DNA from: Kribbella pratensis
GTDB taxonomy: Bacteria; Actinomycetota; Actinomycetes; Propionibacteriales; Kribbellaceae
Assembly: GCF_004366075.1 (NCBI RefSeq)
Contig: NZ_SODU01000001.1
Location: forward strand, 1,549,251 to 1,613,250
DNA length: 64,000 nt
Reading direction: 5' to 3'
Positions 60,520-62,583 of the stretch are shown in pieces. The number at the start of each line of letters is the position of its first letter. Position 1 is the stretch's first letter. The notes under the pieces are model-generated. The model searched no databases. It saw only the letters and a program-made list of their open reading frames with translations, and was not told the DNA's origin. The position numbers and the translations under genes were made by a program.

Positions 60520-60724
60520 CCGGCGTCCCCTCACCCCAGCCCACACCCCAAGCACAGCCTCTGTCGCCCATACAGATCCGCGGGAAGCCGTCCTGATACA
60601 CGCAATCTCACGTATTCAGACACCGAGCCTCGGCGCCCACAGCGGCAGCCGCCCACACCAGCAGGAAGAGGTCACGGTCCGTACGCACCACCTGACAAGA
60701 AGCGGCCCTGGGTGCCAGGCCAGG

Positions 60725-60752
60725 TTGCGATATGTCGTCTACGACATATACT
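60725..60752 (+). promoter_or_regulatory. promoter and operator of the first toxin-antitoxin module
   Basis: TTGCGA (60725-60730) and TATACT (60747-60752) with a 16-base spacer form a good sigma-A-type promoter. The spacer holds a perfect 9+2+9 palindrome, ATATGTCGT CT ACGACATAT (60730-60749). Transcription should start near the first ATG (60759), giving a leaderless message. The palindrome is the expected binding site of the antitoxin. Confidence 0.8.
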
Positions 60753-60758
60753 GAGTAA

Positions 60759-61038
60759 ATGATGGACCGGCTCTACGCGATCGAACTGGAACCGGAAGTT
60801 CGAGCCTGGCTAGAGAGCCTGCCTGCTAAGCACTTCCTCAAGGTCGAGGAATACGTCGGGCTCCTCGCCGAGCAGGCAGCGTCCTTGGGCGAACCTCACG
60901 GTCTTCCGGAAGACGTGAATGCGAGAGGAAACCGAGGTCAAGCGGGCGCTGGTGGCCAAGCAGATCTGCGAGGCTCAACACGGACCAGCGCACGAGGAGT
61001 TCGTTCGGATGATCGAGAGAGGAGAGATCGAGCAATGA
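60759..61038 (+). pseudogene. decayed HigB/Gp49-like toxin gene
   Basis: The first 47 codons give a normal N-terminal toxin half (DRLYAIELEPEVRAWLESLP, EEYVGLLAEQAASLGEPH). The next frame (+1) then carries LTVFRKT, a TGA at 60916-60918, and MREETEVKRALVAKQICEAQ with HGPAHEEF, which is the usual C-terminal half of this family. The middle (about 40 residues with the ELR and catalytic Arg) is gone, the frame is shifted, and the family Arg codon CGA has become TGA. The downstream frame ends in an ATGA overlap with the antitoxin gene, as in intact pairs. The toxin should be inactive. Confidence 0.75.
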
Positions 61039-61376
61039 GTCACAGCCGCTGGAAGACTGTGCGTCAGCGGAAGCTCGGCGCGGGCGCCGTTGAGCCTGAG
61101 GATGTTGTCCAGGCACGGCGTGAGATCCGCTTGTCGATGGCTCTCGCCAAAGCCGTGTACGAACGGCGGGTTGAGCTCGGTCTGACTCAGAGCCAACTGG
61201 CTGATCGCGCCGGGCTGACGCAAGCCAAGGTCTCGCGGATCGAAGGTTCCGACACCGTTCCCACCCTGCCGTTGCTCTCGAAGCTTGCTCTCGCGCTGGA
61301 CGCGTCGCTCAACATCGCGCTCGACGGCGACGAGAGTCGCATTTCGTTCACGCCCCACACAACGGACGCGGCCTGA
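61035..61376 (+). CDS. XRE-family helix-turn-helix antitoxin (HigA-like)
   Basis: A 113-residue DNA-binding protein. The HTH is VELGLTQSQLADRAGLTQAK with VSRIEGSDTVPTLPLLSKLA; the N-terminal 45 residues (SHSRWKTVRQRKLGAGAVEP) are the extension typical of antitoxins of HigB/Gp49-like toxins. ATG 61035 lies in the ATGA overlap with the toxin relic. It is also in frame with the toxin start, so a fused reading from 60759 is an artefact of the deletion. It should repress its own promoter at the palindrome 60730-60749. Confidence 0.85.
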   Translation: MSHSRWKTVRQRKLGAGAVEPEDVVQARREIRLSMALAKAVYERRVELGLTQSQLADRAGLTQAKVSRIEGSDTVPTLPLLSKLALALDASLNIALDGDESRISFTPHTTDAA

Positions 61377-61389
61377 GCACAAGCCCGGC

Positions 61390-62064
61390 TCAGCGTTCCT
61401 TCGACTTCGACGCACCAGGACCGGGCGCCCGATTGACATTCGCCTCCGGCGCCGAGGCCGGTCTCGGCGCCGTGCCTGCCGGCGGGCTGTCGCGGAGGAT
61501 CTGGGCAACCTTCAGCAAATCGCCCGGTACCGCGATCCGGTGTGGGGTCGTCTGCACGCCCTCCCGCCGGTCCGGGCCGATTGCCGGCCGTCCTCCTCCG
61601 GTGAGCCCGTAGAGCTCGCGGTCAGGTTCTCCGCGGCTGCGCCCCAATCGTTCCCCGGCGACTGCCGCCGGATCGTCGGAGCGGTGACCGAAGGCGATCA
61701 CATGGCGGTACGGTTTCGCCTCCGGGTCCTGCACAACACGTCCGTCCTGGACAGTCGGCAGCGGCTCGAACTCCCGGTAGATCAGTCGGTGCGACGCGCC
61801 CCGTGGAAATCCGCCAGGCGTGAACTCCGCTACGACCGGAACCTTCAGTTCGGCACAGTCCCGTAGGTCGTGGGACTGCGGCCCGTAGCCGAGTTGCTTG
61901 CCCTCGTAGGCGTCCTGACGTCCCGATTGCAGCGCCTTGATGGCGTTGATCACGCCGACGTATTCCCGACCGGCGGGGCTGTTGGGGTCGCGCCTGTACT
62001 CCGCACTCAGCCGGTCGATCCCCTGCCGGAGATCCTCGTCGAAAATGAGGTGGTAGCTCGTCAT
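61390..62064 (-). CDS. putative toxin partner, RelE-like pattern with C-terminal extension
   Basis: A 224-residue protein I do not firmly recognise. It begins SYHLIFDEDLRQGIDRLSAE with a repeated Tyr/Arg-rich helix, and has ALQSGRQDAYEGKQLGYGPQ, CAELKVPVVAEF, ASHRLIYREFEPLP and YRHVIAFGHRSDD, a beta-strand/Arg pattern like RelE/ParE toxins. The last 80 residues are Pro/Gly/Arg rich and low in structure. It overlaps the antitoxin-like gene by ATGA, the usual layout of a Phd/YefM-type pair. It lies 13 bases from the first module, convergent to it. Toxin activity is inference. Confidence 0.65.
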   Translation of the reverse strand: MTSYHLIFDEDLRQGIDRLSAEYRRDPNSPAGREYVGVINAIKALQSGRQDAYEGKQLGYGPQSHDLRDCAELKVPVVAEFTPGGFPRGASHRLIYREFEPLPTVQDGRVVQDPEAKPYRHVIAFGHRSDDPAAVAGERLGRSRGEPDRELYGLTGGGRPAIGPDRREGVQTTPHRIAVPGDLLKVAQILRDSPPAGTAPRPASAPEANVNRAPGPGASKSKER

Positions 62065-62417
62065 GGACGGCTGTCGGGGTCATCGGCCGGCCCCGGCGGG
62101 ACATCGAGGTCCCAGCCACCTTCGCGGGCCGCATCTTCGAACGACACGTAGTCTTCCGGGCCGGTGTTGGCGAGTCGCCGGCGTACACCTTCGAGTCGCC
62201 GGCGATCGTCCTCCGCGTCTTCCTTGAGAGTTACGTACTCGGCCCACTGGTCGAAGGAGATCACGACGCCTTCCGGGCGGCCTTCGGAGCCGTAGAAGAG
62301 CGGCTCGGTTGCGCCCTCGTGCCACGACTGAACCGCGTTGCCGAGGGCGCGGCCGGCGGTGGCCGTGTCGACGACACGGATGATGAGGCCGTTCGGGAGG
62401 GTGTAAGGCGATTCCAT
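62061..62417 (-). CDS. putative Phd/YefM-like antitoxin
   Basis: A 118-residue protein. TLPNGLIIRVVDTATAGRAL, then EPLFYGSEGRPEGVVISFDQ and WAEYVTLKEDAEDDRRRLEG resemble the Phd/YefM pattern (dimer beta-sheet, then VVIS-x-x-x-W and an acidic, Arg-rich tail that wraps the toxin). The tail is unusually long and acidic. ATG 62417 is chosen; a frame to 62444 is open. It overlaps the downstream toxin-like gene by ATGA. Confidence 0.65.
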   Translation of the reverse strand: MESPYTLPNGLIIRVVDTATAGRALGNAVQSWHEGATEPLFYGSEGRPEGVVISFDQWAEYVTLKEDAEDDRRRLEGVRRRLANTGPEDYVSFEDAAREGGWDLDVPPGPADDPDSRP

Positions 62418-62424
62418 GACTGCT

Positions 62425-62458
62425 CCTGATCGGGACGTGAGCACGTTCTGTGATCAGG
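62425..62458. promoter_or_regulatory. nested inverted repeats upstream of the second antitoxin-like gene
   Basis: CCTGATC (62425-62431) and GATCAGG (62452-62458) flank an inner palindrome ACGTGAGCACGT (62435-62446). They lie eight bases before the start codon of the minus-strand antitoxin-like gene. A TATCCT on the minus strand (62457-62462) could be its -10. This is a likely autoregulatory operator. Confidence 0.5.
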
Positions 62459-62583
62459 ATAGGTTCCGGGGGGATTTTCTCGGGGGAGATTTCCACAGGG
62501 GTGTATCAGGAGGGTGGGGCGGGCGCTCTCATGGGCGCTGTGGGGACGTGGGGAGACCGCGTCATGAGCCTGTGGGGGGCGTT

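Follow-up and report, generated by a model that had tools for sequence, protein, structure and literature searches.

Probable toxin-first decay of a chromosomal HigBA-type toxin-antitoxin module in Kribbella

The toxin gene of a HigBA-type module in the window (the whole 64,000-nucleotide stretch of Kribbella pratensis DNA that was analyzed) has been destroyed by two lesions, a deletion of 107 nt and a nonsense codon, and its antitoxin gene is intact. This arrangement very probably reflects toxin-first decay of the module, with an antitoxin that is probably still autorepressing. In the proposed explanation, some members of the soil actinobacterial genus Kribbella carry a chromosomal module of a Gp49 toxin and an HTH antitoxin at a variable site flanked by an epimerase and a UDP-glucose dehydrogenase gene, and in this lineage the toxin was inactivated by loss of its RelE-fold core and by the nonsense codon. 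Loss of the toxin would be tolerated while the antitoxin stays. Were the antitoxin lost first, the cell would face an unopposed toxin, so that such modules would be expected to decay toxin first. With the promoter and operator still in place, the antitoxin would most likely still be made and still repress its own promoter.

How toxin-antitoxin modules die, and whether antitoxins without toxins are leftovers or are retained because they are useful, are questions usually approached by counting orphans. Here a single site presents eight different lesions in related species, and pairs of loci in which neither side has the toxin make it possible to measure selection on the antitoxin once the toxin is gone.

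Toxin lesions and retained elements in the K. pratensis window

The features of the locus, all on the + strand, are as follows.

60725-60730, +: -35-like TTGCGA, 16 bp before TATACT (direct reading; similar TTG elements at the equal place in homologous operons)
60730-60749, +: putative operator palindrome ATATGTCGT-CT-ACGACATAT between -35 and -10 (conserved family-wide; a single genome copy within 1 mismatch)
60747-60752, +: -10-like TATACT (direct reading)
60759-60894, +: N-terminal remnant of the HigB/Gp49 toxin, beta1-alpha1-alpha2 (alignment and model of the intact toxin)
60894/60895, +: junction of the 107-nt deletion (alignment with intact toxins)
60895-61038, +: C-terminal toxin remnant, in the +1 frame with respect to the N-terminal part (frame reading and homologues)
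60916-60918, +: TGA at the conserved toxin Arg88, the second lesion (family alignment)
60759-61376, +: 205-aa open frame comprising the toxin N-terminus, approximately 44 out-of-frame residues and the complete antitoxin (the N-terminal 48 aa alone had no Pfam match)
61035-61376, +: intact HigA-like HTH antitoxin, 113 aa (HTH_3 PF01381, 42.7 bits)

The N-terminal toxin frame (MMDRLYAIELEPEVRAWLESLPAKHFLKVEEYVGLLAEQAASLGEP) starts at the ATG at 60759 and runs for approximately 45 residues before the frame changes. The +1 frame of the toxin region reads LTVFRKT, a stop codon, MREETEVKRALVAKQICEAQHGPAHEEFVRMIERGEIEQ and a second stop, and ends at the ATGA overlap with the antitoxin ATG at 61035. 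The first-pass annotation had proposed that the toxin was destroyed by an internal deletion and a stop codon, with a frame jump at about 60893 into LTVFRKT. The alignment to HigB/Gp49-type homologues that it had suggested bore this out: global alignment with intact actinobacterial toxins (L058, L039, L059, L061) gave one 107-nt gap with its junction at 60894/60895, a position that may shift by a few bases. The deletion takes toxin residues ~46-80, which make up most of the RelE-fold sheet. The TGA, which had been read as a replaced Arg codon, falls at family position R88, where at least 90% of 20 intact-family sequences have Arg; this Arg is also kept in the toxin remnants of K. sandramycini (L009) and of locus L018. 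A complete toxin ORF is thus absent from the window copy, and because the deletion and the TGA are two separate lesions, there is no doubt, so far as sequence can be trusted to tell, that the toxin is lost. Either lesion may have come first. A naturally short form of the toxin, the other reading that had been raised, was excluded by 27 full-length homologues of about 122-127 aa.

The ancestral gene would have encoded a HigB/Gp49 (PF05973) toxin, judging from the intact homologue L058, which scored 50.5 bits against the Pfam Gp49 model (cut-off 23.9). Intact homologues in Streptomyces, Nocardia and Nonomuraea (L058, L039 and others) are 127 aa long. An AlphaFold (AF2) model of the intact toxin (pLDDT 81) had the order beta-alpha-alpha-beta-beta-beta-beta-alpha, and its best solved match was the Streptococcus pneumoniae HigB 6af4 (E 1.2e-5), followed by RelE proteins, so a RelE-type fold is predicted for the ancestral toxin. 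In this model the deleted part corresponds to strands 2-4 and half of strand 5, and the invariant residues within it include R55, E56, R58, P59, R67, Y70 and W71. The S. pneumoniae HigBA module (PDB 6af3/6af4) shares with the Kribbella locus and its intact homologues the toxin-first order, the overlapping gene ends, the toxin fold, the HTH antitoxin and the promoter palindrome. It differs in that the window toxin is a pseudogene, the intact relatives of which are ~24-27% identical to the solved toxin.

The promoter palindrome, the ATGA overlap and the full antitoxin, which had also been described as retained, are all present. The toxin lies upstream of the HTH antitoxin with overlapping ends at 61035-61038, and the 113-aa ORF is intact. 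A putative operator equal to that of the window is found at the equal place in many homologous operons. Only 6 bases separate TATACT from the ATG at 60759, so a transcript from the TTGCGA-16-TATACT promoter would likely be leaderless and begin at that ATG. A purine-rich ribosome-binding sequence (GAGAGGAGAG) precedes the antitoxin start at 61035. The antitoxin scored 14.8 bits against the HigA equivalog model TIGR02607, below its cut-off of 47.7, and is therefore called HigA-like by position and partner rather than a HigA equivalog.

The deletion also brings the toxin start and the antitoxin ATG into one frame with no stop between them, so that a gene caller would report a single 205-aa HTH protein. 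Annotators should be aware that such a call would hide the dead toxin. The antitoxin is most likely still produced as this 205-aa fusion, as a 113-aa protein translated from the ribosome-binding sequence before its own start, or as both, and it probably still represses its own promoter; folding or DNA binding might be lost in the fusion.

A role as a co-opted regulator with a regulon was considered and rejected. The putative operator (TATGTCGNNNNCGACATA) has one copy within one mismatch in the 8.39-Mb genome, and sites with two mismatches were little above a reversed-pattern control.

The same chromosomal site in other Kribbella genomes

The epimerase gene adjoining the module was found in 26 of 38 Kribbella genomes (E 1e-100), and in eight of the 26 the module lies between the epimerase and UDP-glucose dehydrogenase genes. 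None of the eight loci contains an intact toxin, and every lesion is different. In addition to the 107-nt deletion and TGA of the window, there is another internal toxin deletion (G002), one extra base in a toxin that is otherwise full-length (G019), loss of the entire toxin with the operator directly before the antitoxin (G001), reduction of the toxin to a middle C-terminal piece (G013), loss of the promoter and of all but the last 18 codons of the toxin (G032), replacement of the promoter, the toxin and the start of the antitoxin, which has gained a new in-frame ATG (G034), and replacement of the middle portion together with an internal deletion of the antitoxin itself (G021). The antitoxin is intact in all but the last of these. 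Because they differ, the visible lesions arose separately; an older common lesion beneath some of the eight is possible.

Between the N-terminal toxin remnants of the window and those of G002 there are 18 synonymous and 6 nonsynonymous changes (omega 0.06), which indicates that both toxins died late and had been under constraint during most of the period after their split. The C-terminal remnants of the window and G021 gave an omega of 0.89.

Kribbella genomes vary in what they carry in the gap that separates the epimerase gene from the UDP-glucose dehydrogenase gene (60556-62583 in the window; L208-L233): almost nothing, toxin-antitoxin-like modules, a methyltransferase-like gene, or other genes. 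The two flanking genes are almost adjacent in several module-free genomes (for example G012, G026, G020 and G006), and in three close relatives (G025, G029 and G023) the gap is filled instead by a gene that, read from its translation, is methyltransferase-like. In the window the gap also holds a two-gene cassette (61390-62444, - strand) that is convergent to the antitoxin and consists of a 127-aa gene (62444-62061) followed by a 224-aa gene (62064-61390) with an ATGA overlap. It looks like another toxin-antitoxin pair; it had no Pfam, NCBIfam, PADLOC or PHROGs family match, and the AF2 model of the 224-aa protein (pLDDT 46) was too poor for placement. Most of the other antitoxin-carrying Kribbella have the cassette at this site too, and G022 has it without the antitoxin.

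Several further observations were made on these loci. In G034 (L007) the deletion took promoter, toxin and antitoxin start, yet the antitoxin ORF stays open thanks to an in-frame ATG farther upstream (MVRKFTQVRWRPGKLG...). Toxin breakpoints appear to cluster near residues 44-49 (motif LGEP|YAR) in seven loci (L004, L008, L009, L041, L071, L082 and L178), and this region may be a deletion hotspot. Nearly full-length toxins interrupted by a single frameshift occur in the K. sandramycini locus (L009) and in L082. Programmed frameshifting to make the toxin was rejected, since these two shifts differ in relative frame and there are large deletions elsewhere. Seven other Kribbella loci (L102-L108) encode a related toxin, ~50% identical to that of L058, together with an HTH partner (~40%), and one of these paralogous pairs occurs together with the orphan antitoxin in the G002 genome.

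Toxin loss at antitoxin loci across the actinobacteria

A wider survey gave 72 distinct antitoxin loci, 64 from a scan of genome contigs started from the antitoxin (duplicates removed) and the eight from Kribbella. A full-length toxin was present at 27 of these. An intact antitoxin with a broken or undetected toxin was found at 36, and the antitoxin was damaged or incomplete at nine, some of them at contig edges. An intact toxin with a broken antitoxin was found at none of the 72 loci. The choice of query could explain part of this asymmetry because the scan began from antitoxins, and some of the loci scored as lacking a toxin may be paired with one beyond detection distance. In 247 Streptomyces genomes both queries were used: with the toxin as query, an antitoxin was detectable at 30 of the 30 best toxin loci, and with the antitoxin as query, a detectable intact toxin was missing at 15 of the 30 best antitoxin loci (Fisher p 6e-6; these loci are not independent samples, so p-values are indicative).

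Toxin-first decay and orphan antitoxins have been described before, and the Kribbella locus is a new and unusually well resolved example; a literature search for Kribbella with toxin-antitoxin returned no paper on this locus. Orphan antitoxins were abundant in surveys of Klebsiella (PMC7192599) and E. coli (PMC10790755), where they were proposed to be decayed modules, anti-addiction genes or regulators. These are likewise antitoxin genes without a functional toxin. In contrast to those surveys, the Kribbella analysis resolves the lesions of eight species at a single chromosomal site and compares selection on the antitoxin with that on toxin remnants. The decay of ccdO157 on the E. coli chromosome (Mine et al. 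2009, cited in PMC7167474 and PMC2654758) is similar in that a chromosomal module degenerates within a group of relatives; it differs in that another toxin-antitoxin family is involved, whereas the Kribbella case is between species, with large deletions and, in the window genome, an in-frame antitoxin fusion.

Selection on toxin-less antitoxins and reasons for their retention

Selection was measured by pairwise counts. For nearest pairs, the median antitoxin omega was 0.10 at loci paired with a toxin and 0.19 at toxin-less loci (Mann-Whitney p 0.003), so constraint on antitoxins without a toxin is relaxed, yet far from absent. In two Streptomyces pairs the toxin is missing on both sides and the sequences match along the whole upstream stretch. 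Pooled, these antitoxins had 19.5 synonymous and 6.5 nonsynonymous changes, a dN/dS of ~0.1 (binomial p 7e-7 against neutrality). In one of the two pairs (L042/L080) the shared toxin remnant had 0 synonymous and 9 nonsynonymous changes versus 8 and 3 in the antitoxin (Fisher p 0.0014). The antitoxin thus appears to have stayed under selection after toxin death in those Streptomyces lineages. In Kribbella, constraint on the antitoxin is inseparable from the late death of the toxin.

That the Kribbella antitoxin is a neutral leftover, which has not yet had time to decay, is plausible, if short of probable. The low omega of the N-terminal remnant fits late toxin death, the relaxed omega at toxin-less loci points in the same direction, and in G021 decay of the antitoxin has already followed. 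Set against these are the strong constraint in the two toxin-less Streptomyces pairs and the persistence of the antitoxin at the 36 loci, which belong to several genera.

A benefit independent of the cognate toxin, such as neutralizing related toxins that enter the cell (anti-addiction) or cross-regulation of other modules, is possible but must be held tentatively. The same Streptomyces pairs, including the contrast between remnant and antitoxin in L042/L080, argue for it, as do the survival of seven of the eight Kribbella antitoxins though the toxin is gone and the presence of close full-length toxins in Streptomyces, Nocardia and Nonomuraea. The relaxation of constraint at toxin-less loci, the deleted G021 antitoxin and the single operator argue against it. 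The first-pass annotation had suggested an anti-addiction module and a search for a second matching toxin, and this search did not support the suggestion. In the 8.39-Mb genome no second toxin of the same subfamily was found, with matches only to the remnants; the sole other Gp49 protein (L117, C6:130471-130743) did not match the subfamily at E 1e-3. The antitoxin is therefore an orphan, intact and with a functional cognate toxin missing both at the locus and elsewhere in the genome. A search of 72,556 plasmids and 50,697 phages turned up no close toxin homologue (highest identity 44%, on a Kitasatospora plasmid), a negative that is weak evidence because actinobacterial plasmids are few in such collections. 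Together these searches leave an anti-addiction role with no identified target. The anti-addiction ccd of Erwinia chrysanthemi offers a parallel for the hypothetical function of a retained antitoxin, but there a plasmid toxin target was demonstrated (PMC2654758), whereas the genome, plasmid and phage searches made here found none. The lack of a second toxin, the single operator copy and the weak negative from mobile elements favor toxin-first decay.

A stronger form of the benefit argument seems rather unlikely. In it, this antitoxin subfamily would be advantageous without its toxin, and the repeated loss of the toxin with retention of the antitoxin in Kribbella, Streptomyces, Nocardia and Nonomuraea would be an outcome favored by selection and not a step on the way to complete decay.

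It is very unlikely that the 205-aa fusion of toxin fragment and antitoxin is a functional single-chain repressor. Its frame is open throughout, and the promoter geometry sets its ATG at the expected transcription start. However, the antitoxin frame is also open over the corresponding last 141 nt in 12 of 21 intact loci, so that this openness is unremarkable and as expected by chance. The fusion is confined to the window genome among the eight Kribbella loci, its ~44 linker residues are out-of-frame sequence, and there is a good internal start at 61035.

A sequencing error at the junction had been raised by the first-pass annotation, and for the single TGA sequencing or assembly error is the usual possibility and nothing more. 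Such an error is scarcely credible here: 107 nt are missing in addition to the nonsense codon, which is a distinct lesion, the contig is 3.1 Mb long, and in other species this site has been damaged in other ways.
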